A program made the position numbers and the translations under genes. From contig JADZDD010000035.1 of the NCBI GenBank assembly GCA_020851235.1, positions 186,001 to 250,000 on the forward strand: a stretch of DNA of 64,000 nt, written 5' to 3'. Source of the DNA: Burkholderiales bacterium. GTDB taxonomy: Bacteria; Pseudomonadota; Gammaproteobacteria; Burkholderiales; Casimicrobiaceae. Of the stretch, positions 11,214 through 34,081 are shown in pieces (within the stretch, counting starts at the first letter, position 1; each line of letters starts with the position of its first letter). The notes under the pieces were generated by a model, which was not told where the DNA came from, searched no databases, and saw only the letters and a program-made list of their open reading frames with translations.

Positions 11214-11221
11214 CGGCGGCG

Positions 11222-11617: not shown

Positions 11618-13177
11618 CTACCGTCTCACGAACGGATTGGGGAACTCGACGCCGGTGGAAATCCAGACACTCTTGATCTCCATGTACTCGCGCATGCCGG
11701 CGATGCCGCCTTCGCGACCCATGCCGCTCAACTTGAAGCCGCCGAACGGTGAAGTCGTGCTCGTCATGCGGTAGTTGTTGACCCATATGGTACCAGCGCG
11801 AATGCGGTCGGCCATGGCGAATGCGCGCGGCATCGACTGCGTCCAGATCCCGGCGGCAAGGCCGAAGTCGATGTCGTTGGCGATGCGCACGGCATCGTCG
11901 TCGTCGCGAAAGCGGATCACGGCGAGCACGGGACCGAAGACCTCCTCCTGCGCGATGCGCATGCGATTGTCGACGTCGGCGAAGATCGTCGGTTCGTAGA
12001 AGAGACCGTCGGGCCAGCCCGGCACCTGCGCGCGCTTGCCGCCCGCGACGAGGCGCGCGCCCTCCGCCGTCGCGATCCCGACGTAGCGCTCGATCTTCTC
12101 GAGTTGCGGCCGGGTCGAGATCGGCGCGATCTGCGTTGCCGGATCGGACGGATGTCCGAAGCGCACGTTGGCGATGAACGCGGTGAGCTTTGCGACGAAC
12201 GCGTCGTGGATCGAATCCTGCACGAGCAGGCGCGACCCGGCGACGCAGCTCTGTCCGGACGCCGCGAAGATGCCTGCGACGGCACCCTTCACCGCCTCGT
12301 CGAGGTCGGCGTCGGCGAACACGATGTTGGGCGACTTGCCGCCGAGTTCCATCGTCACCCGCTTCATGTGGCGCGCCGCCTTCTCGTTGATCATGCGCCC
12401 GGCGTCGGGACCGCCGGTGAAGGCGATGCGGTCGACGCGCGGATCGCTGACGAGCGCGTCGCCCACTTCCGCGCCGTAGCCCGTCACGACGTTGACGACC
12501 CCGGGCGGGAAGCCCGCCGCCGTGACGAGCTTCATGAACTCGAGCAGCGACGCCGAGGTGAACTCGGAGGGCTTGAGCACCACCGTGGTGCCGGCGGCGA
12601 GCGCTGGCGCGAGCTTGAGGCTCATGAGCGGCAACGGCGAGTTCCACGGCATGATGCACACGACCACGCCGGCCGGCTCGTACTTGGTGTAATTGAACAC
12701 GCCCGGCTTGTCGGAGGGGATCACCGTGCCCTCCATCTTGTCGGCGAGGCCCCCGTAGTAGTAGTAATAATTGGCCATGTACTTCATCTGCATGCGAAGC
12801 TCGGCCAGGAGCTTCCCGTTGTCCTTCATCTCGACGTGCGCGAGCCATTCCCCGTGTTCGATGATGAGGTCGCCGAGCCGGCGCAGGAGCGCGCCGCGCT
12901 GCGACGCCGACATCGCAGGCCAGGGCCCACGCGCGAAGGCCGCGGCCGCGGCCGCAACCGCGCGCTCGGCGTCGGCTGCGGTGCCGCGCGGGATCTCGGC
13001 CCAGACCTTGCCGGCGACGGGATCTTCGCTCGCGATCCACTGCCCGCCGATGGGGTCGACGAAGGCACCATCGATGAACAGGCCATAGCGGGCGAGCCCG
13101 TTCACGCGCGGCGTGCGCGCAAGCGAGGCATCGGCGGGATCGAGTTTGGCGTCGAGATCGGCAACGGACGGGCTCAT
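11618..13177 (-). CDS. NAD(P)-dependent aldehyde dehydrogenase
   Basis: A 519-residue ALDH-superfamily enzyme. The oxyanion Asn179 (PWNSP), general base Glu277 (MELGGKSP) and nucleophile Cys311 (GQSC) are all present, as is the C-terminal EEVFGP motif. It oxidises an aldehyde to the acid with NAD(P). The linked RidA-like gene and the divergent polyamine-type importer suggest an aminoaldehyde substrate (for example from putrescine or a related amine), but no amine oxidase or transaminase gene accompanies it. It is the first gene of a three-gene operon. Confidence 0.9.
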   Translation of the reverse strand: MSPSVADLDAKLDPADASLARTPRVNGLARYGLFIDGAFVDPIGGQWIASEDPVAGKVWAEIPRGTAADAERAVAAAAAAFARGPWPAMSASQRGALLRRLGDLIIEHGEWLAHVEMKDNGKLLAELRMQMKYMANYYYYYGGLADKMEGTVIPSDKPGVFNYTKYEPAGVVVCIMPWNSPLPLMSLKLAPALAAGTTVVLKPSEFTSASLLEFMKLVTAAGFPPGVVNVVTGYGAEVGDALVSDPRVDRIAFTGGPDAGRMINEKAARHMKRVTMELGGKSPNIVFADADLDEAVKGAVAGIFAASGQSCVAGSRLLVQDSIHDAFVAKLTAFIANVRFGHPSDPATQIAPISTRPQLEKIERYVGIATAEGARLVAGGKRAQVPGWPDGLFYEPTIFADVDNRMRIAQEEVFGPVLAVIRFRDDDDAVRIANDIDFGLAAGIWTQSMPRAFAMADRIRAGTIWVNNYRMTSTTSPFGGFKLSGMGREGGIAGMREYMEIKSVWISTGVEFPNPFVRR

Positions 13178-13225
13178 CGTGCTTCCTTCATGGCGGCGCC
13201 CTGCCCCGACCGCCGGGGGACGCCG

Positions 13226-14479: not shown

Positions 14480-14502
14480 TCGCGTAACGCCGGCGGCCGC
14501 GC

Positions 14503-16508: not shown

Positions 16509-16517
16509 CCGGCGCTC

Positions 16518-17603
16518 ATGCACGATCCCATCGTCACCTTCGAACGGGTCACGAAGTCCTACGACGGGCGCACGCTCGTCGTCGAGGCGCTCGACTTGAC
16601 GCTCGCCCGCGGCGAGTTCCTCACGCTCCTCGGCCCCTCGGGCTCGGGCAAGACCACGACGCTCATGATGCTCGCCGGCTTCGAGGACCCGACGTCGGGA
16701 ACGATCACGCTCGACGGCAAGCGGCTCAACCACGTCCCCGCGCATCGTCGCGGCATCGGCATGGTGTTCCAGAATTACGCGCTGTTCCCGCACATGACGG
16801 TGGCCGAGAATCTCGTCTTTCCGCTCGAGATGCACGGCGTGCCGAAGGCCGAGATCGAGCCCAAGGTGAAGCGCGCCCTCGACATGGTGCGCCTGCCCCA
16901 GCTTCGCGATCGCAAGCCGGGGCAGCTCTCCGGCGGGCAGCAGCAACGCGTGGCCGTGGCGCGCGCGCTCGTCTACGGCCCCAAGCTCGTGCTGATGGAC
17001 GAGCCGCTCGGGGCGCTGGACAAGCAGTTGCGCGAGGAACTCCAGCTCGAGATCAAGCACCTGCACGACGAGCTCGGCGTGACGATCGTGTACGTCACGC
17101 ACGACCAGTCGGAGGCGCTCACGATGTCCGATCGCATCGCGGTCTTCCATCAGGGTCGGGTGCAGCAGCTCGCCACGCCCGCCGACCTCTACGAGCGGCC
17201 GGCCAACGCCTTCGTCGCGTCGTTCATCGGCGAGAACAATCGCTTCGACGGCACGCTCGTCGGGCGCGACGGTGCGAATTGTCGCGTCCGCCTGCCCGAC
17301 GGCAGCGAGATCGCCGCGACGATCGAGGCCGATCTCGCCCCCGGCGCCGCGGTCGCGGTATCGATCCGTCCGGAGCGCGTCGCCGTCGGTGCGCAGGCGC
17401 AAAGGGACAATCGCTTCGTCGGCGACCTGCGCGAGGTGATCTATCTCGGCGATCACTGCAAGCTGCGTCTTGCCGTCGCCGGCAACGAGAGCTTCGTGGT
17501 CAAGGTGGCGGCCGGTGACGCCGCGACCACACTCGACCGTGGCTCAGCGCTCGCCGTCGCGTGGGATGCCGCCGCGTGCCGCGCGCTGCCGCCGCTCGCG
17601 TAG
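16518..17603 (+). CDS. potA: ABC importer ATPase, PotA type
   Basis: A 361-residue ATPase. Walker A is at 39-46 (GPSGSGKT), the Q-loop at VFQNYALF, the signature LSGGQ at 137-141 and Walker B at VLMDEP (158-163). The His switch is in THDQSEAL. A C-terminal TOBE domain (about 265-361) is typical of the polyamine/molybdate/sugar ATPase group. It is the last gene of the importer operon and ends 7 nt from the convergent amidase gene. Confidence 0.9.
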   Translation: MHDPIVTFERVTKSYDGRTLVVEALDLTLARGEFLTLLGPSGSGKTTTLMMLAGFEDPTSGTITLDGKRLNHVPAHRRGIGMVFQNYALFPHMTVAENLVFPLEMHGVPKAEIEPKVKRALDMVRLPQLRDRKPGQLSGGQQQRVAVARALVYGPKLVLMDEPLGALDKQLREELQLEIKHLHDELGVTIVYVTHDQSEALTMSDRIAVFHQGRVQQLATPADLYERPANAFVASFIGENNRFDGTLVGRDGANCRVRLPDGSEIAATIEADLAPGAAVAVSIRPERVAVGAQAQRDNRFVGDLREVIYLGDHCKLRLAVAGNESFVVKVAAGDAATTLDRGSALAVAWDAAACRALPPLA

Positions 17604-17610: not shown

Positions 17611-19014
17611 TCAGGCCGGCCCGGGCCCGGGTGGCATTGCGAAAGGCCGCGCCGCCTCGAATGCGTGCGAGGCGCGCAGCACGAGCGCTTCCGCATGGCG
17701 GGCGCCGACGACCTGCAATGCGACCGGCAGGCCGTCGCTCGCGATCGCGCACGGCAGCGACGCCGCCGGCTGCTGCGTCCAGTTGAACGGATACGTGTAC
17801 GGACTCCAATCGAGCCACGACGTCATGGCGCGCCCAGGAGGGAAGTCCTCACCCGCGGCGAGCGCGGTCGTTGGCATCTGCGGCGTCACGAGCAGGTCGT
17901 AGCGCTCGTGGAAGGCGTTCATCGCCGCGCCGTCGACGTGACGCGCGTGCGTGGCGTCGAGGAGTGCGTCGACCGTGACCGCACGCCCGCGCTCGGCCAG
18001 CTGCCGGAAGCCGGGATCGAGCACGTCGTGCTCGCGCGCCGGAATCCTGCGCAGGATCTGCGCCATGCTCGCCGCCCACAACGTGTCGAAGTGCTCGCGC
18101 GGCGAGGCGATGGGCGAGGCGATCTCCTCGACGCTCGCACCCGCATCGGCAAAAACGCACACGGCCGCGGCGGTGAGCTGTGCCACCTCGGCGTCGGGCC
18201 GTGCCCCGCACAGCGTCGGGCACCAGCCGATGCGCAGGCCGCGCACGCCGACGCCCAGGTCGCGACGGTAGTCGGTCCCCGGCACGTACGGCAGCGCCGT
18301 CCAGTCGCGCGCATCGGGCCGCGCGATCGTGCCCAGCATGAGCGCCGCGTCGGCGACGGTGCGGGTGAGCGGGCCGTAGTGCCCCAACGCCACGCGACCC
18401 GGCGGCCACGCCGGCACGCGGCCGAACGTCGCCTTGAAGCCGTACACGCCGCAGAAGGCAGCCGGAATGCGGATCGAGCCGGCGCCGTCGGAGCCGACGT
18501 GCAACGCGCCCATCCCGGTGGCGGCGGCAATCGCCGCTCCGCCGCTGCTGCCGCCGCAGGTGCGCGCAGGGTTCCACGGATTGCGGCTCACGCCGAGCAA
18601 GGGGCTGTCGGTGACGCCCTTCCAGCCGAACTCGCACATCGCGGTCTTGCCGAGGAGCACCACCCCTGCCTCGCGCAACCGCGCAACGCACGGCGCGTCG
18701 ACGGTGCCCGGCGCCGCACTCGACGTGCGCGAGCCGTGGCGCGCCGGCGCACCGATCGTGGGGCACAGGTCCTTGACGGTGACGGGCACGCCGTCGAGCG
18801 GCCCTTGCGGCGTGCCGGCGTGCCAGCGTGCCGTCGCCGCCTGCGCCTGCGCGAGGGCCTCCTCCTCGAGCACGACGAGGAAGGCGTTGAGCTCGCCGTT
18901 GCGCGCGGCAATCGCGGCAAGGCACGCCTTCGTGACCTCGAGCGGCGAGAAGCGGCGCGCGCGATAGCCGGCGACGAGCTCGACGGCGGACAACCGGTGC
19001 AGGGCCGACGTCAT
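17611..19014 (-). CDS. Amidase-signature family amidohydrolase
   Basis: A 467-residue amidase. The Ser-Ser-Lys triad is present: Lys81 (GVPVTVKD), cis-Ser156 (CGGSSGG) and nucleophile Ser180 (GSDGAGSIRIP). It hydrolyses a carboxamide to acid plus ammonia. It is the distal gene of the operon GntR-acnA-hydantoinase-isochorismatase-cobW-tctC-amidase, 46 nt after the tctC stop. The context suggests removal of an amide from a ring-opened intermediate or a substrate-activating first step. The substrate is unknown. Confidence 0.85.
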   Translation of the reverse strand: MTSALHRLSAVELVAGYRARRFSPLEVTKACLAAIAARNGELNAFLVVLEEEALAQAQAATARWHAGTPQGPLDGVPVTVKDLCPTIGAPARHGSRTSSAAPGTVDAPCVARLREAGVVLLGKTAMCEFGWKGVTDSPLLGVSRNPWNPARTCGGSSGGAAIAAATGMGALHVGSDGAGSIRIPAAFCGVYGFKATFGRVPAWPPGRVALGHYGPLTRTVADAALMLGTIARPDARDWTALPYVPGTDYRRDLGVGVRGLRIGWCPTLCGARPDAEVAQLTAAAVCVFADAGASVEEIASPIASPREHFDTLWAASMAQILRRIPAREHDVLDPGFRQLAERGRAVTVDALLDATHARHVDGAAMNAFHERYDLLVTPQMPTTALAAGEDFPPGRAMTSWLDWSPYTYPFNWTQQPAASLPCAIASDGLPVALQVVGARHAEALVLRASHAFEAARPFAMPPGPGPA

Positions 19015-19060
19015 GGCGGCGTAGCGCGAAGGCGCGAGTGATCCGGTGCAGGAGCGGACG

Positions 19061-20056
19061 TCAGTTCATCTGCACGTTGGCTTCCTTGATGATCTTGCCC
19101 AGGCGCGGCACTTCGGCCGGATGGTACCTGGCCATTTCCGCGGCCGGCTTGTACCAGATGTCGAAGCCGGTCGTCGCGAGCGTCTTCTCGCTTTCCGGAT
19201 CCTTGACGAGCGCGCCGATCGCATCGCTCCATTTCGCGACCACCGCCGGCGGCAGGTGCGCCGGCCCGTAGACGCCGATCGTCGTGTCGAGGCCGAGCGA
19301 CGGCAGCCCGACCTCCTTGAAGGTGGGGATGCCCGGCAGGCGCGGATCGCGCACGTCGTCGGAGACGGCGAGGATGCGCACCCGACCGTCCTTGTAGTAC
19401 GGCGCGACGCTGCCATAGGTCGGCACCATGAAGTCGACCTGGCCACCGATGAGATCGGTGATCGCCGGCGCGCCACCCTTGTACGGCACGTGCACCGCGT
19501 TGAGGCCGAACTGGCGATTGATGTACTCGCCGATGATGTGCGACGACGAACCGTTGCCCACCGACGCGAACGACAGCGGTTTCGCCTTGGCTGCTTGCAG
19601 GAGCTGGTCGACCGTCTGGTAGGGCGACTTGGCCGAGACTGCGAGCACGTTCTTCGTGCGCGCGAGCATCGCGATCGGCGTCACGTCCTTGACGAGGTCG
19701 TACTTCAGCTGCGGATAGAGCGTCTGGTTGGTGCCGTGCGTCTGGCTGTTGCCGATGGTGAGCGTGTAGCCGTCCGGCGCCGCGGCAATCCCCTCGCCGG
19801 TGCCGATCGTGCCCGAGGCGCCCGGCTTGTTCTCGACGACGATGGCCTTGCCACCCCACATCGCGCCGACCTTCGCCGCCACGAGCCGGGCGATGATGTC
19901 GGTGCTGCCGCCCGGGGGAAAGGCGACGATGAGGCGAATCGGTTTGTCGGGATACGTGTCTTCGGCCATCGCGCCGGGTGCCGCCACGGCGGCGGCGAGC
20001 AGGCCGGTCACGACGAAGGCACGACGGGTGCACCGCAAGTCAGGCAATGAGATCAC
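19061..20056 (-). CDS. TctC/Bug-family periplasmic solute receptor
   Basis: A 331-residue periplasmic receptor of the tripartite tricarboxylate transporter family. The N-terminus has an Arg-Arg pair (CTRRAFVVTG) before a hydrophobic stretch and an Ala-x-Ala cleavage site near AMAED. The hallmark first segment is YPDKPIRLIVAFPPGGSTDIIAR. Start is GTG 20056 with AGGA about 10 nt upstream, 12 nt after cobW stops. No TctA/TctB membrane subunits are in the window, which is normal for Bug proteins. It likely binds the carboxylated substrate of the operon. Confidence 0.9.
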   Translation of the reverse strand: MISLPDLRCTRRAFVVTGLLAAAVAAPGAMAEDTYPDKPIRLIVAFPPGGSTDIIARLVAAKVGAMWGGKAIVVENKPGASGTIGTGEGIAAAPDGYTLTIGNSQTHGTNQTLYPQLKYDLVKDVTPIAMLARTKNVLAVSAKSPYQTVDQLLQAAKAKPLSFASVGNGSSSHIIGEYINRQFGLNAVHVPYKGGAPAITDLIGGQVDFMVPTYGSVAPYYKDGRVRILAVSDDVRDPRLPGIPTFKEVGLPSLGLDTTIGVYGPAHLPPAVVAKWSDAIGALVKDPESEKTLATTGFDIWYKPAAEMARYHPAEVPRLGKIIKEANVQMN

Positions 20057-20068
20057 TGCAGCATCCTT

Positions 20069-21199
20069 TCAGGTGGGAATGTCGGAGAGGGAAGCGCCGA
20101 GGCGCTGCGTCGCCTCGGCGAGGAGCGCGGCCGGCACGTGCTGGGCGATGACGACGACCACGCCGTCACCCCATTCCCGCGGCAGTGCCGGCAGCGGGGT
20201 CGGGGCATTGAAGAGGTGCATGACCGCGTGCAGCGCCTGCACCGTGCCATCGTCCATCCGCACGGCGCCCTTCATGCGCAGCAGACGCTCGCCGAAGGCG
20301 CGCTGCATCCATTGCACCCAGGCGGCGTAGCGCGCCCAGGCGAGCGGCGCGGGAAGGCGAATCGACACGGTGACGATCTCGCTCGCGGTGAGGTGCGCCC
20401 GGTGGTGGTCATGAGCCGAGGCCTGCGCGTCGGCGCCGTGCCCCTCCGGCACGCAGCCGGGGCCGTGCGCGTGCGTGGCGTCGTGTGCGTGCGTGGCGTC
20501 GTGTGCGTGCGTGGCGTCGTGCGCGTGCGTGGCGTCGTGCGCGCCGTCACGCAGCGCGGCCAGGGCGACGGAGTGCCCAGGGTCGACGAAGACCTCGGCG
20601 GCGGCAATCGCGCCGTGCGCCGCACTCCGGCACACGGCGTGCGGTGCGAGCGCCGCCACGCGCTGCAGGAGCGCGTGCCGGGTGGCGGCGGAGGCGACGT
20701 CGGTCTTGGTCACGACGATGCGGTCGGCCATCGCGACCTGCCGCCTCGCCTCGGCGAAGCGATCGAGCGTGTGCTCGCCGTGGACGGCATCGACCACGGT
20801 GACGATGCTCCCCAGGCGGTAGTGCCGCACGATCGTGCTGTCGAGCGCCAGCGTCGAGGCGATCGGCCCGGGATCGGCCACTCCGGTCGTCTCGATCACC
20901 ACGCGCCGAAACGGCGGCAGCTCACCTCGCTCGCAGCGGTAGTGCAGCGACTCGAGCGTCTCCTGCAGCGAGTTGCCGAGCGCGCAGCACAGGCACCCCG
21001 AATCGAGCAGGACGACGTCGTCCTCGCTGCCGCGATCGACGAGCACGTGATCGAGTCCCACTTCGCCCAGCTCGTTGATGACCACCGCGGTGTCGGCGAG
21101 CGCGGGATCGCGCAGGAGGCGCCCGAGGAGCGTCGTCTTGCCGCTGCCCAGGTACCCGGTCAAGAGGTGCACCGGCCGCGGTTCGCGATCGTAACTCAT
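20069..21199 (-). CDS. CobW/CobN-domain GTPase (metallochaperone) with His-rich repeat loop
   Basis: A 376-residue G3E GTPase. The P-loop GYLGSGKT is at 15-22, the metal-binding CxCC motif (CLCC) at 69-72, ETTGVADP further on, and the TKTD guanine-specificity motif follows. Residues about 219-270 hold a loop with 14 histidines, including a four-fold HDATHA repeat. A C-terminal CobW_C domain follows. Family members deliver zinc or other metals to metalloenzymes. The obvious client here is the adjacent dihydropyrimidinase-like binuclear metallohydrolase. ATG 21199 gives the normal start just before the P-loop. Confidence 0.85.
   Translation of the reverse strand: MSYDREPRPVHLLTGYLGSGKTTLLGRLLRDPALADTAVVINELGEVGLDHVLVDRGSEDDVVLLDSGCLCCALGNSLQETLESLHYRCERGELPPFRRVVIETTGVADPGPIASTLALDSTIVRHYRLGSIVTVVDAVHGEHTLDRFAEARRQVAMADRIVVTKTDVASAATRHALLQRVAALAPHAVCRSAAHGAIAAAEVFVDPGHSVALAALRDGAHDATHAHDATHAHDATHAHDATHAHGPGCVPEGHGADAQASAHDHHRAHLTASEIVTVSIRLPAPLAWARYAAWVQWMQRAFGERLLRMKGAVRMDDGTVQALHAVMHLFNAPTPLPALPREWGDGVVVVIAQHVPAALLAEATQRLGASLSDIPT
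20469..20540 (-). repeat. Four tandem 18-bp units encoding HDATHA
   Basis: Four head-to-tail copies of an 18-bp unit, nearly identical (one base differs between units 1-2 and 3-4), lie in frame within the CobW GTPase gene. Each adds two histidines. Such identity suggests recent expansion by slippage, and copy number may vary between strains. Confidence 0.9.
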
Positions 21200-21305
21200 G
21201 CGTGCCTCGCAAGGCGGCCCGCCACGCGGCGCGACCGCTGCCGCTGCCGTCCCCACGCCGCCGCCGCTCCGCGCGCCATGGTGCCGCCGCCGGACGCAGC
21301 TTCCC

Positions 21306-22037
21306 TCAAGTCGCCGGCGCGACGTACGGTGCGCGCACCGGCAGGCCCGCGAGATACGCCTCGACCTCGGTGCTGGGGATCACGTCGGCGTACTTGCAGT
21401 TGAGGTCGAAGAGATTGATCGCGTGGCTCGCCTCGAAGCGGTCGAACGCGCACTGCTCCGGGATCACCACCTTGAAGTTGTACGAGTAGGCATCGACGGC
21501 GGTTGCGCGCAGGCAACCCGACGTGGTGCAACCGGTGAGGATCAGCGTGTCGATGTCGAGGAAGTTGAGGTGGCTCATGAAGATCGTGCCGAAGAAGCAC
21601 GACGGCTTGCGCTTGCCGATCCGAATGTCCGCCTCGCGCGGCGCCAGCGGCGCCACCGTCTGCGTCGCGTGCGTCCCCTCGAGCACGGTCTTTTCGGTGC
21701 CGCGATGGTTCTTGCCGACCTGCACGCCGCTGTCGAGCATGTCGGCGCGCCGCGCGCTCTCGGTGTAGAAGACGGGAAGGTTCTTCTCGCGCGCGAGGTG
21801 CAGCAGCGGCTCGATGTGCGCCACCGCGTCCCACGCCTCCCGGCCGCAGTGCGTGCGGTACTGCGCGAGCCCGTCGAGGATGTCCTGCGGCGTGTCGCCG
21901 CAGAAGTTGTACTGGACGTCGATGATGAACAGCGCCGGGCGCGTGCCGAAGCCGCCACGCTTGCCGTAGCCGGAGCGCGCGTAGACCTCCTTGTCGCGCG
22001 CGGTGAGGAAACGATCCCAGATTCGGGGTTGGGTCAC
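21306..22037 (-). CDS. Isochorismatase-family amidohydrolase (N-carbamoylsarcosine amidase-like)
   Basis: A 243-residue cysteine hydrolase. The catalytic triad Asp40 (FIIDVQYNF), Lys142 (IGKRKPSCFFGT) and Cys175 (TGCTTSGC, last Cys) is visible, with the cis-peptide region just before it. The YGKRGGFGTRPALF start and the C-terminal NLFDLNCKYADVI resemble N-carbamoylsarcosine amidase and maleamate-type amidases. It should hydrolyse a carbamoyl or carboxamide group. GTG 22037 with GAGGA about 8 nt upstream was chosen; a longer upstream frame would overlap the hydantoinase gene. Confidence 0.85.
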   Translation of the reverse strand: MTQPRIWDRFLTARDKEVYARSGYGKRGGFGTRPALFIIDVQYNFCGDTPQDILDGLAQYRTHCGREAWDAVAHIEPLLHLAREKNLPVFYTESARRADMLDSGVQVGKNHRGTEKTVLEGTHATQTVAPLAPREADIRIGKRKPSCFFGTIFMSHLNFLDIDTLILTGCTTSGCLRATAVDAYSYNFKVVIPEQCAFDRFEASHAINLFDLNCKYADVIPSTEVEAYLAGLPVRAPYVAPAT

Positions 22038-22107
22038 GGTGATGTCCTCGTGGATGGAGTCGGTGCGGTGCGGCGGATCGCCGGCGTCGTTCGCGGCGGG
22101 CGCGGCG

Positions 22108-23468
22108 TCAGCGTCGAAACAGATAACGGCCGTGCGGGTGCTCGCGCGCGTCGGCAAGGACGCGCCCGTCGCGCATGACGCAACGGCCGCGCACGTAGGT
22201 GGCGACGGGCCAGCCGGTGAACGCCATGCCCTCGTACGGCGAATAGTCGGCGAAGGACTCGAGGGCGGCGGGATCGACCGTGCGCGTGAGCGCGGGGTCG
22301 ACCACCACGACGTCGGCGTCGTACCCGACCATGAGCGCGCCCTTGCCGGTCATGCGGTAGATGCGGGCGGCGTTGGCCGCGGCGACCTGCGCGATCCGCT
22401 CGGGCGCGATGCCCCGCCGGCGCACGCCCTCGTCCAGGAGAATCGGCAGCATCGTGGCGACCCCGGGAAAGCCGTTACTCGACGCCCAGATGCCCTTGCC
22501 TTGCTTGGTGCTGCGCTTGCGGGGCACGTGATCGGTGCCGACCGTGTCGATCGCGCCGTCGGCAATGCCCTCCCACAGTGCGTCGACGTCGGCGCGCGAG
22601 CGCACCGGAGGATTGACCTTGGCGAGCACGCCCGCCGGCGCATGGTCGTCGAGCAGCAGGTAGTGCGGGCACGTCTCGACGAAGATCGGCGCGCGGCTCG
22701 TGCGTCGATGGCGGCGAACCTCGTCGAGCGCCTCCTTCGACGACAGGTGGACGATGTTGATCGCCGCGCCGACCTTGCTTGCGAAGTAGCAGGCGCGATG
22801 GACGTTCTCCGCCTCGAGGAAGTCGGGGCTCTGCTCGTTCCACGCCGCGAGATCGTCGCGCCCGGCACGGCGCAACGGCTCGCGCAGGTACGGAATGACC
22901 TCGACGTTCTCGCAGTGGATGCCGAGCACCGCGCCCGGGATCGCGGCGGTCGCCTTGAGCGAAGCGAAGAGCAGCGCGTCGTCGATCTCGGTGAAGCCCT
23001 GCGCGAGACCGGCCGCGCCCTTGTACATGAGGTAGAGCTTGTACGACGTGACGCCGAAGCGTTGCGAGCACTCGGCCAGCGTTTCGACGTGCAGGTGGCT
23101 CGTGATGCCGAAGTGCAGACCCACGTCGATGCAGCTTTGCGCGATGCGCGCGTCGCGAAAGCCGTCGAAGGTCGCACGAAAGTCGGCGGTCCGGTAGAAC
23201 GACAGCGCCGACGTGACGCCGCCCAGTGCCGCCGAGCGCGTTTCGGTCGCGAAGTCGGTCTCCGGCGAGCCGAAGCCGAAATGGACGTGTGGATCGATCA
23301 CGCCCGGCAGGATCCAGCGGCCGGAGCAATCGACGGTCTCGGCAGCGGCGGCGTCGGTGTCCGCCGGCAGCAGCGCCGCGATCCGCCCGTCGGCCACACC
23401 GAGCGAACCCGGCACGCTGCAAAGGCCCGGGTGCACGAGCGTTGCGTTCCGCAAGAGGAGGTCGAGTT

Positions 23469-23472
<4 letters not shown>
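22108..23472 (-). CDS. Dihydropyrimidinase/hydantoinase-like metal-dependent cyclic amidohydrolase
   Basis: A 454-residue member of the amidohydrolase superfamily. All binuclear-metal ligands are present: His62 and His64 (DPHVHFG), Lys145 (SYKLYL, carbamylated in the family), His186, His242 (VHLSSKEA) and Asp314 (GTDHVP). It should open a cyclic amide or imide ring. Start ATG 23472 overlaps the aconitase stop by 4 nt, so both proteins are made together. This overlap with a TCA-type enzyme is the strongest hint that the pathway ends in a tricarboxylate. Confidence 0.9.
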
Positions 23473-26198
<2,726 letters not shown>

Positions 26199-26202
26199 GG
26201 CC

Positions 26203-26859
26203 TCACCGCCGTCGCCCATCGAGCGCGTGCAGGCGCTCGGTCACCTTGACCGCCGCGCGCGCGATGTGCGCCCGCATGAGCGACTCCGCGAGTTCGCCGT
26301 CACGCGCGCGCAGCGCCCGCAGGATCTGCCAATGCTCGGCGTGCGCCTCGTCGCTGCGCTCGGGGACCGCGCCCGAGCGTCGGCGGTAGACGCGCAGGAC
26401 GTGGTACAGGTCCCCGCACAGCGTGTTCGTGATGCGCGCGTTTCCGCTCGCCCGGATGATCCGCTCGTGGAAGTCGAAGTCGGGCGCGCGCGCCCGCGAC
26501 TTGCGTGCCGCGAGGCGCGCCGCCCGTGCCGCGTCGAGATCGGCGGCGACACGCTCCTGCTCGGCGTCGCTCATGCGCTGCGCCGCGAGGCGGCACGCCA
26601 TCCCCTCGAGCGCTTCGCGCATCTCGAAGAGTTCGCGCACCTGTGTCGCGGTGAGGCGCACGACGGTCGCTCGCATGTAGGGCTCGCGCGAGACGAGACC
26701 GATGCCCTGCAGACGGCGCACCGCTTCGCGGACCGGGCCGCGCGAAACGCCGAAGCGGCCGGCGAGCGCGGCCTCGTTGACCTCGTCGCCGGGAGCGAGC
26801 TCGCCCGAATAGATCGCATTGAGCGTGCTCGTGAACAGCGTGTCGCTCAGGGTCGTCAT
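26203..26859 (-). CDS. GntR-family regulator with FCD domain
   Basis: A 218-residue regulator. A winged helix (about residues 15-75, with LAGRFGVSRGPVREAVRRL) is followed by an all-helical FCD ligand domain, with the usual Asp/His metal ligands region (FHERIIRASGNAR). FCD regulators typically sense carboxylic acids. ATG 26859 is only 8 nt after a candidate -10 (TATCGT), so the mRNA is probably leaderless. A palindromic site covers its own -35 and a second copy covers the divergent -35. Confidence 0.9.
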   Translation of the reverse strand: MTTLSDTLFTSTLNAIYSGELAPGDEVNEAALAGRFGVSRGPVREAVRRLQGIGLVSREPYMRATVVRLTATQVRELFEMREALEGMACRLAAQRMSDAEQERVAADLDAARAARLAARKSRARAPDFDFHERIIRASGNARITNTLCGDLYHVLRVYRRRSGAVPERSDEAHAEHWQILRALRARDGELAESLMRAHIARAAVKVTERLHALDGRRR

Positions 26860-26867
26860 GCGCCGGG

Positions 26868-26899
26868 ACGATAGCCGGCAGGGGGATACGTGTCAACAC
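26868..26899 (-). promoter_or_regulatory. Promoter and operator of the GntR/acnA operon
   Basis: On the minus strand TTGACA (26891-26896), a 17-bp spacer and TATCGT (26868-26873) form a good sigma-70 promoter ending 8 nt before the ATG. The -35 lies inside GTGTCAACAC (26890-26899), an imperfect palindrome with a second copy at 26978-26987. This fits autorepression by the FCD regulator. Confidence 0.7.
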
Positions 26900-26977
26900 T
26901 TTCGCGGTTGGCGATGCCTCGACATCGGCCAATCCCATGGTTACACGAGGGAATCGCATCGAGGTGTGCGACCCAAT

Positions 26978-27010
26978 GTGTTGACACTTGATCGATGCGC
27001 AACGTATGAT
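26978..27010 (+). promoter_or_regulatory. Divergent promoter and second operator for the methyltransferase operon
   Basis: TTGACA (26981-26986), an 18-bp spacer and TATGAT (27005-27010) face the plus strand. The -35 is within GTGTTGACAC (26978-26987), the exact reverse complement of the site at 26890-26899. The same regulator therefore probably controls both operons. Confidence 0.7.
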
Positions 27011-28380: not shown

Positions 28381-28787
28381 GCCGACACGGCAGCCCGGCG
28401 CACGAGGCCGCGATCGCCGTCGTGCGCGACTTCCTGCGCGCGCTCGAGGCGCGCGAGGTCGACCGCGCGCAGGCGCATCTCGCGCCGGACGCGCGCGTCG
28501 TGGTGCCGGGCGGGCGCGAGGTGCGTGCGGTTGCGGACATCGTGACCAACTCGTCGCGCCGCTACCGGCGCATCGGCAAGCACATCGAGCGCGTGGAAGC
28601 GCACGATGCGCCAAACGGCAACGTCGTCGTCTACTGCCTCGGCACGCTGCACGGCACCTGGCCGGACGGCACCGACTTCGACGGCATCCGCTTCATCGAT
28701 CGCTTCGAGCTTTCCGGACTTCGCATCGTGCAGCAGGAAGTCTGGAACGACACCGCCGAGCGCCGCGCCGCACTGGCGCAGCGCTGA
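28377..28787 (+). CDS. SnoaL/NTF2-like fold protein
   Basis: A 136-residue protein with the alpha+beta cone pattern. An N-terminal helix (EAAIAVVRDFLRALEARE) is followed by HLAPDARVVVPGGREV and alternating strands ending FIDRFELSGLRIVQQEVW. Such proteins are small-molecule isomerases, hydrolases or hydroxylases, or act as binding subunits. TTG 28377 is the only suitable start and overlaps the stop of the 22-codon ORF. Confidence 0.7.
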   Translation: MSRHGSPAHEAAIAVVRDFLRALEAREVDRAQAHLAPDARVVVPGGREVRAVADIVTNSSRRYRRIGKHIERVEAHDAPNGNVVVYCLGTLHGTWPDGTDFDGIRFIDRFELSGLRIVQQEVWNDTAERRAALAQR

Positions 28788-28810: not shown

Positions 28811-29764
28811 ATGAAACTGCGTCACCTCCTCGCCGCCGCCTGTGCCTTCGCCTGCATCGTCCCGGCGCAGGCGCAAACATTCCCGACCCGGCCGATCACC
28901 ATCGTCGTGCCGTACGCGCCGGGTGCGACCGACCGGCAGGCACGCCAGATCGCCGAGCTCGCGTCGCAAACGCTCGGCCAGCCGATCGTGGTCGAGAACC
29001 GCGACGGCGCCGGAGCCACGATCGGCGCCAACTACGTCGCCACGTCGAAGCCCGACGGCTACACGATTCTCTTCAGCACGCCGGCGGTGATCACCGTGGC
29101 GCCGCTGGTGAGCAAGCCGCCGTACAAGTACGACGATCTCGTCGGGCTCGCGCGCGCCTCGATCACGCCGCATTTCCTGGCCGCACGCGCCGACGCGCCG
29201 TTCAAGAACGTCACGGAGCTCATCGCCTACGCGAAGGCCAATCCGGGCAAGGTCACCTTTGCAAGCCCGGGCAGCGGCACCGCCGTGCACCTTGCCGCCG
29301 AGGCCTTCGCCGACGCCGCGGGCATCAAGCTCAATCACATCCCGTATCGCGGGACGGCACCGGCGGTCACCGCCGCGGTGGCCGGTACGGTGGACCTCGT
29401 GCTCGGAGCGCCGGGCACGATCGGGCCGCAGGTGGAAGGGGGGAAGCTTCGCGCCATCGCACAGTTCGGCCCGACGCGCTCGCCGACGCTGCCCAACGTG
29501 CCCACGCTGAAGGAGAGCGGCGTCGACGTCGCGCTGCGTGCCGAGTTCGGCTTCTTCCTGCCCAAGGGCGTGCCGTCCGACGTCGTCGCCAAGCTCGATG
29601 CCGCGCTCGCGAAGGCGATCCAGTCCGACACGTTCAAGGAGTTCGCGGCACGCGCGCTCGCGGTGCCCGCGTACCTGCCGGGGCCCGAGTACCAGAAGTC
29701 GGTCGACGACGAGCGCGCGGTGTTCGTGCGCGTGGTGCCCAAGCTCGCTCTCGACACCAAGTGA
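28811..29764 (+). CDS. TctC/Bug-family periplasmic solute receptor
   Basis: A 317-residue receptor. The signal peptide spans 1-22 with cleavage after PAQAQA. The mature start FPTRPITIVVPYAPGATDRQAR is the Bug hallmark, and NVPTLKESGVDV is the conserved late motif. It is 23 nt after the SnoaL-like gene and probably the last gene of this operon. Ligand unknown; Bug proteins bind carboxylates, amides and related small molecules. Confidence 0.9.
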   Translation: MKLRHLLAAACAFACIVPAQAQTFPTRPITIVVPYAPGATDRQARQIAELASQTLGQPIVVENRDGAGATIGANYVATSKPDGYTILFSTPAVITVAPLVSKPPYKYDDLVGLARASITPHFLAARADAPFKNVTELIAYAKANPGKVTFASPGSGTAVHLAAEAFADAAGIKLNHIPYRGTAPAVTAAVAGTVDLVLGAPGTIGPQVEGGKLRAIAQFGPTRSPTLPNVPTLKESGVDVALRAEFGFFLPKGVPSDVVAKLDAALAKAIQSDTFKEFAARALAVPAYLPGPEYQKSVDDERAVFVRVVPKLALDTK

Positions 29765-29884: not shown

Positions 29885-30817
29885 GTGACCACCACGAAAT
29901 CGAAGGCATCGCGCTATCGCGAGCTCCTGCGTTCGGGCGAATTCATCGTGTCGCCCGGCGTCTACGACGGCTACAGCCTGCGCCTCGTCGAGCGCGCGGG
30001 GTTCAAGACGGCGGCCACGAGCGGCGCGGCGATCTCCAACGCGCTCCTCGGCATCGACGACATCGGCGTGATGACGCTCACGCAAAACGTCGAGCACTGC
30101 CGCAACCTCGCGCGCTGCGTCGACATCCCGGTCACCGCGGACGCCGACAACGGCTACGGCAACCCGGTCAACGTCCACCACGCGGTGCAACTGTTCGAGG
30201 AGGCGGGCCTTGCCGGCGTCAACATCGAGGACCAGGTCGCGCCGAAGCGCTGCGGACACATGCCCGGCAAGGAGGTGGTGTCGCGCGACGAGATGGTGCG
30301 CAAGATCGAGGCCGCCTGTCTTGCGCGTCGCAACCCCGACTTCGTCATCATCGCGCGCACCGACGCGCTCGCGCTCGAGGGCATCACCGACACGCTGGAG
30401 CGCGTGCAGGCGTACGCGCAGGCCGGCGCCGACATGATCTTTCCCGATGCGGTCAAGCGCGAGGACGACATCGCCCGCATCGTCGAGGCCGCCCGGGTGC
30501 CGGTGACGATCAACATGGGCTTCGGAATCCGCTCGCGTCCGACCACGCCGCTCATCCCGATTCCCCGCCTCAAGGCCCTCGGCGTGCGCCGCATCAGCCT
30601 GCCACGCATGTTGCCGGCCGCCGCGATCAAGGCGATGACGACGGCGCTCGCGCTGATGCGTGGCGTGGTCGAGAGCGGAGAGCCCATCGATCGCCCGGAC
30701 CTCCTCGCCGGCATCGACGAGATCATGGCGCTCATGGGTTACGACGACATGCGCGCGCTCGAGGCGCGCCTTCTCGGCGACGACGCTGTCGAGCGCAAGT
30801 ACGGGAACGCGCCATGA
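29885..30817 (+). CDS. Isocitrate lyase/PEP mutase superfamily lyase
   Basis: A 310-residue (beta/alpha)8 enzyme. Metal-binding TADADNGYGN is at 84-93, and the catalytic loop KRCGHMPGKE is at 121-130 with Cys123. The KxCGH loop marks the C-C lyase branch (isocitrate, methylisocitrate, dimethylmalate lyases) rather than the phosphonate mutases. Start GTG 29885 has GGAG about 10 nt upstream. It shares a four-gene block with a flavin monooxygenase, a racemase-fold protein and an aminotransferase, all with overlapping ends, suggesting a catabolic pathway yielding a short oxo-acid. Confidence 0.85.
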   Translation: MTTTKSKASRYRELLRSGEFIVSPGVYDGYSLRLVERAGFKTAATSGAAISNALLGIDDIGVMTLTQNVEHCRNLARCVDIPVTADADNGYGNPVNVHHAVQLFEEAGLAGVNIEDQVAPKRCGHMPGKEVVSRDEMVRKIEAACLARRNPDFVIIARTDALALEGITDTLERVQAYAQAGADMIFPDAVKREDDIARIVEAARVPVTINMGFGIRSRPTTPLIPIPRLKALGVRRISLPRMLPAAAIKAMTTALALMRGVVESGEPIDRPDLLAGIDEIMALMGYDDMRALEARLLGDDAVERKYGNAP

Positions 30818-32001
30818 CGGCGCCACGCGAGGTGATCGTCGCCGGCGCGGGCCCGGTGGGTCTCGTTGCCGCACTGGCACTGGCCGACGCAGGTGTTGCC
30901 GTCACCGTCGCCGAGAAGCGTCCCGCGCTCAGCACGGCGTCGAAGGCATCGACGTTCCATCCGCCGACGCTTGCGATCCTCGACCGGCTGCGCGTGCTCG
31001 ACACGGTGCAGCACCTGGGCCAGCGCGTCGATCGCGTGCAATACCGCACGGCAAGCGAAGGCATCTTCGCGGAATTCGAGCTCGCCGTCCTCGCGCCGTA
31101 CACGGCGTTTCCGTTCCGCCTGCATCTCGAGCAGGCCGCGCTCACGCCGGTGATCCTCGAGCGCCTGCAACGGCACTCTCATGCGCGCGTCCTCTTCGAC
31201 GCCGAAGTCGAAGACGTCGTGCAAGACGAGGCTCGCGTCACGGTGCGCGTCCGGCGCGGCGCGACGTCCGAGACGCTTGCCGCCGACTGGCTGGTCGCCG
31301 CCGACGGCAGCCGCAGCGACCTGCGCACGCGGCTCGGCATCGCCTTCGAAGGGGTCGAGTACGCCAACAAGATCCTGCGCCTCATGACCGACGACGACCT
31401 CGACGCGCTCCTGCCCGGGATCGCTCCGGTGACGTACGTGTGGAACGACGCCAAGTCGGTGAGCTTCCTGCGCATGCCCGACTGCTGGCGCATCATCCTG
31501 CGCGTCCCCAAGGAGGTCGACGATGCGATCGCGCTGCACCGCGACTGGATCCTCGCGCGCCTCCGGGAAGTCGTCCCGCACTGCGAGCGCGTCCCGCACG
31601 TCGTGATGCAGGACGTCTACGGCGTGGCGCGGCGCATCGCAGGCCGCGTCCGCGACGGGCGCGTGCTCCTCGCCGGCGACGCGCTGCACATCACCAACAC
31701 GCGCGGCGGAATGAACATGAATTGCGGCATCCACGACGCATGGGCGCTCGCGCACGCGATCGCCGCCGCACCCGACGGCGCCGACGCAGCTTTCGTCGCT
31801 GCCGCTGCGGACGAGCGCCTGCGCGTGGCGCGCGACATGCTGATCCCGCGCACCGATCGCAACGTGGCCGGAGGCGCGGCCTGGCTCGACCGGATCCGCA
31901 CGATGGCCGCCGACCCCGCCGAGGCGGCGGCGTACCTGCGCACCGCGGCGATGCTCGACATGACGCCGGCGCTCGCCCCGCTTGCGGAGAACGCGGCGTG
32001 A
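30814..32001 (+). CDS. FAD-dependent aromatic-ring-type monooxygenase
   Basis: A 395-residue class A flavoprotein monooxygenase. The GAGPVGLVAALALADAG dinucleotide motif is near residues 10-26. WLVAADGSRSDLR (DG motif) and GDALHITNTRGGMNMNCG (second FAD motif) are near 166-178 and 288-305. Such enzymes hydroxylate aromatic or heteroaromatic acids with NAD(P)H and O2. ATG overlaps the lyase stop by 4 nt. The C-terminus is short, lacking the thioredoxin-like extension of phenol hydroxylases. Confidence 0.85.
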   Translation: MTAPREVIVAGAGPVGLVAALALADAGVAVTVAEKRPALSTASKASTFHPPTLAILDRLRVLDTVQHLGQRVDRVQYRTASEGIFAEFELAVLAPYTAFPFRLHLEQAALTPVILERLQRHSHARVLFDAEVEDVVQDEARVTVRVRRGATSETLAADWLVAADGSRSDLRTRLGIAFEGVEYANKILRLMTDDDLDALLPGIAPVTYVWNDAKSVSFLRMPDCWRIILRVPKEVDDAIALHRDWILARLREVVPHCERVPHVVMQDVYGVARRIAGRVRDGRVLLAGDALHITNTRGGMNMNCGIHDAWALAHAIAAAPDGADAAFVAAAADERLRVARDMLIPRTDRNVAGGAAWLDRIRTMAADPAEAAAYLRTAAMLDMTPALAPLAENAA

Positions 32002-32765
32002 CCGGCGGCGACGTGGTTCGCCGCGTGCGTCCGCCGGCGTGGGCCGGGGTCGTCGTGCCCCCCGCCAATCCGACCGTCGAACCCGAGCTTGCGCGGCTGG
32101 TCGACGGCGCGCTCACGCTCTACGCGGCGCGCTTTCCGGTGATGCCGCAGACCACGCTCGAAGAGCGCAATCGTCGCTACCTCGATCATTACCGCGACGC
32201 GCTTCGCGCCTTCGGCAATCTCACGCTGCGCGCGCTCGTCATGGCGCTCACGGGCCCCTCCTACCGGCTGCTGCCCGAGGGCGATCGGGCGCTCGGCCGC
32301 GAACTCGGCGCGCAGGCCGGGATCCCGGTGGCGACCGCCAGCACGGCGATCGCCGACGCGCTCGTCGCGGTCGGTGCGCGGCGGCTGTGCCTCCTCTCGC
32401 CGTACCCTGCATGGCTCACCGCCGAGGCGGCGGCGTACTGGCGCGCGGCCGGCCACGACGTGGTGCAGGTGGTGTCGATCTCGGAGACGTTTCGCGCCTA
32501 CGAACTGTCGGCCGATGAGGTCTCGACGGCGCTGCGCGCGGTCGATACGCGCGCGGTCGACGCCGTCGTGATGAGCGGCACCGGGATGCTCACGCTCCCC
32601 TCGATCGTCGCGGCGCGCGCGACGCTGCACCTTCCGCTCCTGTCGTCGAACCTGTGCTGCGCGTGGTGGCTCCTCGCGCAGTGCGGCGAGCCCGCAGGCT
32701 CCGCGCTCTTCGCGCAGGCCGCCCCCGAACTCGCCGCGCGGCTCGGGCGAGTTCCTGCCGCATGA
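31998..32765 (+). CDS. Asp/Glu racemase-fold protein (maleate isomerase/arylmalonate decarboxylase-like), cysteines replaced
   Basis: A 255-residue protein with the two-lobe racemase fold: AGVVVPPANPTVEPEL at 16-31, LVMALTGPS near 80-88 and AVVMSGTGMLTL near 189-200. In the family the second and third segments normally carry catalytic Cys (C-T-S-G and S-C-G/T). Here they read L-T-G and S-G-T, so both are absent; the CC at 220-221 is in a different loop. GTG 31998 overlaps the monooxygenase stop. The reaction is therefore uncertain; cofactor-free isomerase or decarboxylase chemistry would need other residues. Confidence 0.75.
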   Translation: MTGGDVVRRVRPPAWAGVVVPPANPTVEPELARLVDGALTLYAARFPVMPQTTLEERNRRYLDHYRDALRAFGNLTLRALVMALTGPSYRLLPEGDRALGRELGAQAGIPVATASTAIADALVAVGARRLCLLSPYPAWLTAEAAAYWRAAGHDVVQVVSISETFRAYELSADEVSTALRAVDTRAVDAVVMSGTGMLTLPSIVAARATLHLPLLSSNLCCAWWLLAQCGEPAGSALFAQAAPELAARLGRVPAA

Positions 32766-34081
32766 AGCGAGATCCCATGTCAACACCAAGCTCCCCTGTC
32801 GCAGCCACCCCCGGATCATCGTCGCGTTTTGCCGGCTCGCAGGCGTATCAGGCGCGCGCGCAGCAGGTGCTGCCGCGCGGCGTCTCGTCGTCGCCGCGCG
32901 CAACGCAGCGCCCCGTTCCGCTCGCGATCGCCCGTGGCGAAGCCGCGCACGTGATCGACGTCGACGGCAACGAGTACATCGATTACTCGCTCGGTTACGG
33001 ACCCCTGCTCCTCGGTCACAGCCCGGAACCGGTGCTCGCCGCGGCCGAGCGCGAGCTGCGCAAGGGCTTGCGCACCGGTGGCATCACGCCGCTCGAAGCG
33101 GAACTGGGCGAGCGCATCGCGAAAGCGATGCCGGCGTGCGAGATGAGCGCGTTCGTGTCGAGCGGCACCGAGGCCGCCCAACTCGCGCTGCGCCTCGCGC
33201 GGGCCGCGACGGGCCGCCTCACGGTGGTCAAGTTCCGCTGCCACTACCACGGCTGGTCCGACGCGATCCACGTCGCGACCGACGCCGCGAACGACGGACC
33301 CTCGACCGGAGGGCAGGATCCCGATGCGCTGCGTCACGTCGTCGTTCTCGACTGGGGCGACATGGCCGCGCTCGAGGCGCTCGACGCGAGCGGCGTCGCC
33401 GCGGTGATCATGGAAGCGGCGGCGGTCAACGCCGGTTGCTTCGCGCCGGCGCCGGGCTACCTCGCGCGCGTGCGCGAGTGGACGACGCGGCACGGTGTCG
33501 CTCTCATCTTCGACGAGGTCATCACCGGCTTTCGCCTGGCCCTGGGCGGAGCGCAGGGCCGCTTTGGCGTGGCTCCCGATCTCACGGTGCTCGGCAAGGC
33601 GCTGGGCGGCGGCCTGCCGGTGAGCGCCGTCGCCGGGCGGCGTGCGCTGTTCGAACCGATCGTGCGCGGCACCGTATCGCAGCGCGGGACGTACAACGGT
33701 TTCCCGCCGGCGATCGCCGGTGCCGTCGCCTGCCTCGATTACCTTGGCACGCATGCCGCAACGCTGTATCCGCGCATGGAGGCGTACGCGACGACGCTCG
33801 CGGCGCACGTGCGCACGGTCGCCGCGCGCACCGGCGTTGCCGTCGCTGCCAATCAACTGGGGCCCTGCGTCCAGCTCTTCGCTGGAGTGAGCGCTGTGCC
33901 CACGCTGCGCGATCTCGCGCGGGTCGACAAGGAGCGCACGCTCACGCTGACCGCGGCCCTCGTCGAGCACGGCGTGGCACCGCTGCCGCGCGGCATGATG
34001 TACGTGAGCAGCGCGCACACCGACGCCGACCTCGCGCGCACGCTCGAAGCGCTCACCGCGGCGATCGGCCGCCTCGCGTAG
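32762..34081 (+). CDS. Class III PLP aminotransferase (glutamate-1-semialdehyde aminomutase-like)
   Basis: A 439-residue fold-type I PLP enzyme. It has PRGVSSSPRA, SSGTEAAQLALRLAR, FDEVITGFR (Asp binding PLP N1) and the Schiff-base Lys in LGKALGGGLP. It is similar to HemL but lies in a catabolic operon, so an omega-amino or beta-amino acid transaminase or mutase is more likely than tetrapyrrole synthesis. ATG 32762 overlaps the previous stop (ATGA); ATG 32777 is an alternative start. Confidence 0.85.
   Translation: MKRDPMSTPSSPVAATPGSSSRFAGSQAYQARAQQVLPRGVSSSPRATQRPVPLAIARGEAAHVIDVDGNEYIDYSLGYGPLLLGHSPEPVLAAAERELRKGLRTGGITPLEAELGERIAKAMPACEMSAFVSSGTEAAQLALRLARAATGRLTVVKFRCHYHGWSDAIHVATDAANDGPSTGGQDPDALRHVVVLDWGDMAALEALDASGVAAVIMEAAAVNAGCFAPAPGYLARVREWTTRHGVALIFDEVITGFRLALGGAQGRFGVAPDLTVLGKALGGGLPVSAVAGRRALFEPIVRGTVSQRGTYNGFPPAIAGAVACLDYLGTHAATLYPRMEAYATTLAAHVRTVAARTGVAVAANQLGPCVQLFAGVSAVPTLRDLARVDKERTLTLTAALVEHGVAPLPRGMMYVSSAHTDADLARTLEALTAAIGRLA

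Follow-up and report, generated by a model that had tools for sequence, protein, structure and literature searches.

Introduction

Cyclic imide metabolism by an imidase or a D-hydantoinase has reportedly been described by Ogawa, Soong and Shimizu in Blastobacter sp. A17p-4, where a hydantoinase-fold enzyme is said to open the ring before the half-amide is hydrolysed. Isonicotinate degradation runs through citrazinate and cis-aconitamide. Nicotinate and nicotine degradation uses a maleamate amidase (NicF, Ami), and the nicotinate fermentation of Eubacterium barkeri uses enamidase, dimethylmaleate hydratase and dimethylmalate lyase. The 2-methylcitrate cycle combines a hydratase of the aconitase or PrpD family (AcnD or PrpD) with PrpB, a lyase of the isocitrate lyase superfamily carrying the motif KRCGH. 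Here we analyse a gene set with likenesses to these systems in a stretch of 64,000 nucleotides from a Burkholderiales bacterium of the Casimicrobiaceae (assembly GCA_020851235.1, contig JADZDD010000035.1). This whole stretch is called the window, and its own positions are given throughout. The genes in question encode a cyclic amidohydrolase (HYD), an isochorismatase-fold amidase (ISOC), an AcnA-type hydratase (ACN) and a PrpB-like lyase.

As in the Blastobacter route, a hydantoinase-type enzyme and a half-amide hydrolase are present, but the present set continues with an aconitase-type hydratase and a PrpB-like lyase within one local regulon, and HYD has an invariant pocket Arg. The isonicotinate route offers a cyclic imide-like ring, a half-amide and an aconitate-type acid. 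It differs from the present system, in which no molybdenum hydroxylase (PF20256) is linked among the matches listed, the hydratase is modified and the lyase is dedicated. The hydratase and the KRCGH lyase recall the 2-methylcitrate cycle; here, however, a ring-amide hydrolase and an amidase come first, and the lyase scores under the PrpB cut-off, with the changes E188D and G47A and Arg residues in its loop. No citrate synthase turned up among the annotated genes, although no search was aimed at it. E. barkeri likewise has a cyclic amidohydrolase, an aconitase-family hydratase and a lyase of the isocitrate lyase superfamily in one pathway, whereas the present set has an amidase step (ISOC); the annotated genes include neither a B12 mutase nor an isomerase, no search being aimed at these enzymes. 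ISOC shares its fold, and likely half-amide chemistry, with NicF and Ami, but it is a distant relative (75-90 bits) and the ring-opening enzyme is of another type. The gene set is probably a conserved variant of cyclic-imide catabolism that ends in methylcitrate-type cleavage. No description of it, or of isonicotinate or citrazinate genes, was found in the open-access literature, most subscription journals being outside the scope of the search.

We read the gene set as a catabolic module with its own local regulation, dedicated to a cyclic imide that carries a carboxylate or to a tautomer of such a ring, and give this reading a probability of roughly 58%. From the genes and residues described below we infer the reactions, their order and the type of substrate. 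The TctC receptor would import an acidic precursor, which lineage-specific redox enzymes would convert to the ring. HYD, which probably receives its metals from a CobW-type GTPase, would open the ring to a half-amide, from which ISOC would release the nitrogen as ammonia. ACN would hydrate the resulting cis-unsaturated polycarboxylate, and in a retro-aldol reaction the lyase would then cleave the hydroxy acid, yielding a 2-oxo acid plus a dicarboxylate that would enter the tricarboxylic acid (TCA) cycle. GntR would repress both divergent transcripts via operators over their -35 boxes. The module thus looks like a compact, separately regulated pathway in which cyclic-imide hydrolysis leads on to hydration and cleavage of the methylcitrate type; it is present in more than 30 genomes, mostly of Burkholderiales.

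A gene set linked across genomes

Seven genes lie contiguously on the minus strand of the window (17611-26859). The operon is led by a GntR-FCD regulator (26203..26859; PF00392/PF07729), followed by ACN (23469..26219), whose stop codon shares an ATGA overlap with the start of HYD (22108..23472), a cyclic amidohydrolase of the hydantoinase/imidase type (dihydropyrimidinase type). ISOC, with a GTG start (21306 to about 22037), a CobW-type GTPase (20069..21199; PF02492 and PF07683), TctC solute receptor 1 (19061..20056; PF03401) and an amidase-signature enzyme (17611..19014; PF01425) complete it, and the gaps along the operon downstream of HYD are 70, 106, 12 and 46 bp. The GTPase is probably a metal chaperone for HYD. 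A first-pass annotation of this DNA had described a GntR-led operon with TctC, HYD, ISOC, the amidase and a translationally coupled ACN, and all of these genes are where it placed them; the CobW-type GTPase and a plus-strand operon with the lyase (29885..30817) had been missed. The enzyme types also fit the ring opening, deamidation and hydration that it proposed. Its scheme was right in kind, but it stopped short of the cleavage step, and the substrate it named, citrazinate, is weak, as shown below.

To assess conservation, we used a scan for HYD, which yielded 245 relatives; the best 80 of these 245 loci were kept. Group 1 comprises loci with HYD about 50% identical or more, and group 2 comprises 34 loci with HYD 38-45% identical, some on short contigs. 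Group 1 was tallied as 40 entries from 39 genomes or records (genomes or plasmids): the window, 35 loci of L005-L041, L084, L085, and the pair L112/L113 from one genome. L038 (a partial contig) and L040 (of group-2 type) were left out of these counts, as was the sister locus L004/L111 (6.2 kb), which carries GntR, ACN, HYD and ISOC. Because all loci were selected by HYD, its presence in group 1 is no evidence. Rows were accepted at an identity of at least 55% for the lyase and at least 50% for ACN.

ISOC was linked in all 39 genomes or records, ACN in 38 and an orthologous lyase in 37. Counted by entry, ISOC was found in 39/40, ACN in 37, GntR in 37, CobW in 36 and the lyase in 36. The one entry without ISOC comes from a locus split in two and represents its second half, and longer stretches recovered ACN for L022 (in L096) and the lyase for L032 (in L101) and L112 (in L113). 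L034 is an exception, with a LeuC/LeuD-type pair in place of ACN and a lyase relative only 41% identical; the contig of L024 begins at HYD, and no orthologous lyase was counted there. Linkage and sequence conservation over the 39 genomes or records exceed chance, and the first-pass expectation of an operon conserved in other genomes was borne out for ISOC (39/39) and ACN (38/39). It was not borne out for the amidase as a core enzyme, which at E 1e-15 occurs in 1/40 entries, the window itself. An amidase-signature gene 34% identical to it precedes ACN with a 4-bp overlap in Azospirillum (L096, 12296-16437), so in some lineages the module may include an amidase.

Group-1 members include Bordetella, Achromobacter, Pigmentiphaga, Verticiella, Advenella, Azospirillum and Salinarimonas, together with one Shinella and one Antarctobacter plasmid. 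The annotated plasmid copies are labelled as aconitate hydratase AcnA, dihydroorotase or amidohydrolase family, and isocitrate lyase/PEP (phosphoenolpyruvate) mutase family, and these names hide the pathway. The genome of the window (G000) is a draft assembly (41 contigs, 3.93 Mb) with a completeness of 98.8%. The module is accessory in this genus: at a threshold of E 1e-150, HYD was detected in G000 and in 1/21 further genomes of the genus, and in 3/100 when all genomes searched are counted.

The gene content differs in group 2, where ISOC was found in 29 of the 34 loci and CobW in 24. Recurrent neighbours there are MmgE/PrpD-type proteins, a TcuA-like flavoprotein and a Liv-type ABC (ATP-binding cassette) transporter; of 43 loci, 11 have one MmgE/PrpD-type family and 8 have another.

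Proposed ring opening and deamidation

The HYD residues H62, H64, K145, H186, H242 and D314 are invariant in 40 rows. By PMC9863593 and family knowledge, they are the ligands of a binuclear metal centre (four His, a carbamylated Lys and an Asp). The substrate pocket differs between the two groups. R94 is present in 38/38 group-1 rows and in 0/34 group-2 rows, which have L or M, and Y147 and Y150 are invariant in group 1, whereas F stands in their place in 34/34 and 31/34 of the group-2 rows; the group-2 pocket is hydrophobic (F/L/F/F). In an AlphaFold2 model of HYD (mean predicted local distance difference test score, pLDDT, of 96.2), R94 directly follows the barrel strand 86-93, which we take from family knowledge to end on the metal side of the barrel. 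Y147 and Y150 align with F152 and Y155 of the Bacillus hydantoinase, lid residues that contact the ring substituent according to PMC9863593.

In ISOC, the triad D42, K144 and C177 (numbered on the translated segment) is kept in 39/39 group-1 and 29/29 group-2 rows, and R98 and K146 are gained in 39/39 group-1 rows. Its closest solved relatives include N-carbamoylsarcosine amidohydrolase, the best match, and putative isochorismatases, all distant (75-90 bits). We take the structures 4l07 and 3uao to be maleamate amidases.

Relatives of HYD 33-36% identical were seen in metagenome-assembled genomes (MAGs) of Nitrososphaeria and other archaea (L074, L077-L083). An operon of the order CobW-HYD-ISOC-Liv ABC-PrpD-flavoprotein-PrpD recurs in L043-L073 (e.g. 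L049, 8947-20955), mostly in MAGs of Comamonadaceae and with the hydrophobic HYD pocket; it is perhaps a sister pathway for alkyl imides.

Proposed hydration by a dedicated aconitase-type enzyme

ACN keeps the [4Fe-4S] cysteines and the active-site motifs of AcnA: DHS, DSHT and CTNT in 36/37 rows (one gap), SSRDWA in 37/37 and NRNFEGR in 34/37. The catalytic motifs are intact while pocket residues are changed. Lys 518, right after a cluster cysteine, is present in 36/36 rows having the position, versus N, N and A in three AcnA proteins.

The first-pass annotation regarded ACN as a dedicated aconitase and held that an only housekeeping copy would speak against it. G000 has three PF00330 genes, of which the C6 copy is a canonical AcnA (TIGR01341, 1268.7 bits), and in 29/29 genomes with HYD we found a match at a separate locus, 54-77% identical to the canonical AcnA of G000. 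In a tree, a branch with 100/100 support separated 16 ACN rows from 17 AcnA rows. Since canonical AcnA is encoded elsewhere and the operon copies form their own clade, ACN is not the housekeeping copy.

The retained motifs would also suit an inhibitor-resistant spare aconitase outside the pathway, which would protect the TCA cycle during the breakdown of a toxic aconitase inhibitor by HYD and ISOC, and the Shinella plasmid does carry a second AcnA near the module. We consider this highly improbable: ACN is coupled to HYD by the ATGA overlap, the lyase is linked in 37/39, and other hydratase families accompany HYD and ISOC where ACN is missing, namely LeuCD in L034 and MmgE/PrpD in group 2. The second AcnA of the Shinella plasmid (L084, 4881-8971) is itself diverged (branch length 1.09) and lies with an MmgE/PrpD protein 7-11 kb upstream of HYD.

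Proposed cleavage by a PrpB-like lyase

The strongest linked partner beyond the span of the first-pass annotation is the lyase on the plus strand (29885-30817), a member of the isocitrate lyase/PEP mutase superfamily. Compared with E. coli PrpB, KRCGH, the Mg ligands D58, D85, D87 and E115, and R158 are kept in 36/36 orthologs, and so are the changes G47A, H113N and E188D. The PrpB loop ITEFG is replaced in 36/36 by a longer loop with two invariant Arg, R216 and R218, where E. coli PrpB has T and F. The lyase scores 235 bits against a PrpB equivalog cut-off of 354. Its model has a mean pLDDT of 92.2, falling to ~72 at residues 211-220, and the insert forms a loop after the strand that ends at N210.

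At E 1e-90, the lyase was found in 3/399 genomes of the order (G000, G989 and G1083). It adjoins GntR and ACN in G989. In G1083 (L182, 1498-3341) it overlaps a cyclic amidohydrolase of the PuuE-allantoinase family by 4 bp and is preceded by TctC and a TcuA-like flavoprotein; over the 15 kb covered, which start at the contig end, no HYD, ISOC or ACN was present. That this lyase also stands next to a ring-amide hydrolase of an unrelated kind speaks for the ring-opening logic. The PuuE family includes a cyclic imide hydrolase.

These enzymes bear on the citrazinate route, in which HYD would give cis-aconitamide, ISOC cis-aconitate, ACN isocitrate, and the lyase glyoxylate and succinate. Its reaction types come in the right order, R94 of HYD could bind the ring carboxylate, and ACN retains the catalytic motifs of aconitase. 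On the other side, a dedicated aconitase and lyase would be redundant for it with housekeeping AcnA in 29/29 genomes, and the lyase is PrpB-like. Its loop and E188 position differ from PrpB in 36/36. The PrpB tested in PMC11982470 had no detectable isocitrate lyase activity. Plain cis-aconitate needs neither a diverged aconitase nor this lyase, which weakens the citrazinate route further. The first-pass annotation had also cited the isonicotinate route and suggested a search for linked molybdenum hydroxylases. Isonicotinate as the entry is not supported: no PF20256 match lay within 12 kb of HYD in 29 genomes among the matches listed, the nearest being ~13 kb away in G011. Linked instead are short-chain dehydrogenases/reductases (SDRs), a TcuA-like flavoprotein, and monooxygenases of the flavin adenine dinucleotide (FAD) or luciferase-like (LLM) type, which have no evident role for citrazinate itself. 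It is possible that citrazinate is supplied from outside. On this evidence we regard the citrazinate route as quite unlikely.

The gain of invariant cationic residues in HYD, ACN and the lyase suggests another acidic substrate. With these pocket changes and a dedicated lyase to follow, cis-aconitate, put forward earlier as the specific product, is not supported. On balance we infer a carboxylate side chain on the group-1 ring, though such residue changes could serve other ends.

Local control by a putative GntR operator

Two palindromes lie between the divergent operons of the window. The first (26888..26901) lies over the -35 box of a minus-strand promoter-like site (26896-26868), and the second (26976..26989) over that of a plus-strand site (26981-27010). 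Their core, GTGTYRACAC, occurs twice in the window, both times in this divergent region (26890-26899 and 26978-26987); shuffled windows had a mean of 0.24 copies, and two copies were reached in 2/100 shuffles. Each core copy covers the TTGACA of its promoter-like site, which matches at 11/12 positions on the plus strand and 10/12 on the minus strand. A longer form, AAGTGTYRACACRT, has exactly two copies in G000, both between the divergent operons. From its position, the palindrome AGTGTYRACACT is the putative site of GntR, which would act there as a repressor.

In other genomes, 16/22 of the GntR-ACN intergenic regions contain the palindrome AGTGTNNACACT. With up to 3 mismatches allowed, a relaxed setting at which part of the hits are due to chance, 18/20 regions gave a match; all 20 lack the exact form, and six of them overlap the 22. 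We also scanned 17 genomes, picked from 29 mostly because their loci already showed the motif, and WAGTGTYRACACTW occurred once in 14 of them, with all 14 sites within 3 kb of HYD. A reversed control pattern matched one genome, G013.

Operator copies also precede other genes of the pathway. A copy lies just before TctC in L016, L019, L027 and L039, and another upstream of GntR and ACN in L112. In L096, the operator stands between a divergent amidase-ACN-ISOC group and an ABC receptor gene that precedes an LLM monooxygenase. Because copies lie before TctC, the LLM-linked group and GntR/ACN, a single local control seems to govern a large part of the pathway, TctC included and, in some lineages, redox enzymes. 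As the operator is usually unique in its genome, the substrate question is directly testable by an inducer reporter.

Weighing the substrate

Several observations weigh against a module for a carboxylated cyclic imide. HYD scores under the cut-off of each of the best 25 of 54 NCBIfam models, missing allantoinase, dihydropyrimidinase, dihydroorotase and ErtD at equivalog level, so that it may act on imides, hydantoins or dihydropyrimidines. HYD also gained an acidic residue, E71, in 37/38 group-1 rows, versus mostly Ile. In ISOC, position 46 is Arg in 29/29 group-2 rows and Asn in 39/39 group-1 rows, and position 99 is Lys in 28/29 group-2 rows; the charge argument for an acidic substrate is therefore mixed for this enzyme. 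ACN passes the AcnA equivalog TIGR01341 (1101.2 bits over a cut-off of 945), so ordinary aconitase activity may be retained. A lyase relative was found in just 12/34 group-2 loci and an ACN relative in 3/34 (some contigs there are short). The exact WAGTGTYRACACTW is absent from G000, G019 and G028 in the 17-genome scan, and the partner operon of the window holds further genes whose role is unclear.

A ureide ring is also possible, because the best solved relative of ISOC is a carbamoyl hydrolase. HYD would then open a hydantoin or dihydropyrimidine, ISOC would hydrolyse the N-carbamoyl product, and ACN and the lyase would process the deaminated skeleton. The best scores of HYD among the best 25 of 54 models, for dihydropyrimidinase and allantoinase, would agree with such a route, as would N-carbamoylsarcosine amidohydrolase as the relative of ISOC and the presence of RidA and an aminotransferase near some loci. 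We nevertheless think it unlikely, since no annotated recurring neighbour family makes an unsaturated acid from an amino acid (no search was aimed at ammonia lyases), and the imide reading requires no additional step.

The contrast between R94 in group 1 and the hydrophobic F/L/F/F pocket in group 2 could also point to pyrroles. The module might be a bacterial route for breakdown products of pyrroles or tetrapyrroles, with acid-bearing maleimides for group 1 and alkyl maleimides for group 2; we put this forward very tentatively and hold it to be improbable. Group 1 might use hematinic acid, for which the four proposed steps from ring opening to cleavage could end in pyruvate and glutarate, or a maleimide derived from porphobilinogen, for which they could end in 2-oxoglutarate and succinate. 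If this were true, the module would be a bacterial route for tetrapyrrole carbon, of which no description was found in the open-access literature searched.

Extra genes for HemC (porphobilinogen deaminase) lie ~1.2 kb from HYD in Azospirillum and ~8.4 kb from it on the Shinella plasmid. Two HemC were found only in G000 and G014 of 25 genomes, each with a copy on the HYD contig. Against the pyrrole reading, G826 and G820, among 22 genomes of the same genus, also hold more than one HemC, and the charge argument from ISOC is mixed here as well. Porphobilinogen as a common substrate is weakened because the entry enzymes vary between lineages. The Azospirillum and Shinella HemC are not each other's kin in the tree, so any link between HemC and the module would be convergent. 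Among six further HemC regions on plasmids, four have no neighbours other than genes of tetrapyrrole synthesis (hemD, hemE or heme d1 genes); the Haematobacter plasmid copy lies beside amine dehydrogenase genes, and that of the Sulfitobacter THAF37 plasmid beside hemE, a CobW gene and an amidohydrolase that gave no BLAST match to HYD.

HemC was considered as evidence for a pyrrole substrate and downgraded: the window HemC is genus-like, the block in which it lies exists without HYD, and no operator is nearby. The intact gene of the window (HemCb, 9302-10354) clusters with its genus in the tree and is the only intact HemC of G000. A full-length paralog, HemCa (7197-8117, minus strand), has its nearest kin in G820; in it the catalytic Asp is gone (HSLKN), as is the Cys that binds the cofactor, both positions being assigned from family knowledge.

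Putative entry enzymes and neighbouring genes

The candidate redox enzymes differ between lineages. In a clustering of 37 loci and the window, two SDR families were linked in 18 and 13 of them, mostly of Achromobacter and Bordetella, and a flavoprotein like TcuA or flavocytochrome c in 9 of the clustered loci. An aldehyde dehydrogenase (ALDH), an FAD monooxygenase and an arylmalonate-decarboxylase-like (AMDase-like) protein occur in the window, L014, L024 and L084, and LLM monooxygenases in L096 and L085. We read these lineage-specific enzymes as feeding several precursors into one ring.

In the window, the start of the FAD monooxygenase (30814..32001, plus strand) overlaps the stop of the lyase, and its closest solved relatives are PnpA and HspB. 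It was considered as a general entry enzyme and set aside, since at E 1e-70 it was found in 1/398 phylum-wide genomes (the window) and in only 4 module loci. It is followed on the same strand by the AMDase-like protein (32007..32765; PF17645). Upstream of the lyase, also on the plus strand, lie TctC solute receptor 2 (28811..29764; PF03401) and an NTF2-like protein (28389..28787), which has no NCBIfam match of its own and is named from its relative in L085; NTF2-like relatives are linked in L100 and L111 as well.

The membership of two further genes in the pathway is uncertain. The ALDH (11618..13177, minus strand) is 72-75% identical to ALDHs right downstream of the core in L014 and L024, and a HemL-like class III aminotransferase (32717..34081, plus strand) is 54% identical to one in L084; both also occur in G826 without HYD. 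They belong to a block of ABC transporter, ALDH, RidA, HemC and class III aminotransferase genes that occupies 9302-17603 and 32717-34081 of the window. A search for the longer operator form in G000 gave no copy near the ABC, ALDH or HemC genes of the window. The block is present without HYD in G826 and in part in G816, both searched for HYD, and in G000 the HYD module appears to interrupt it, with the ABC ATPase gene on one side and the aminotransferase gene on the other. The aminotransferase gene is adjoined by a gene of the proline racemase family on the minus strand (34100-35086).

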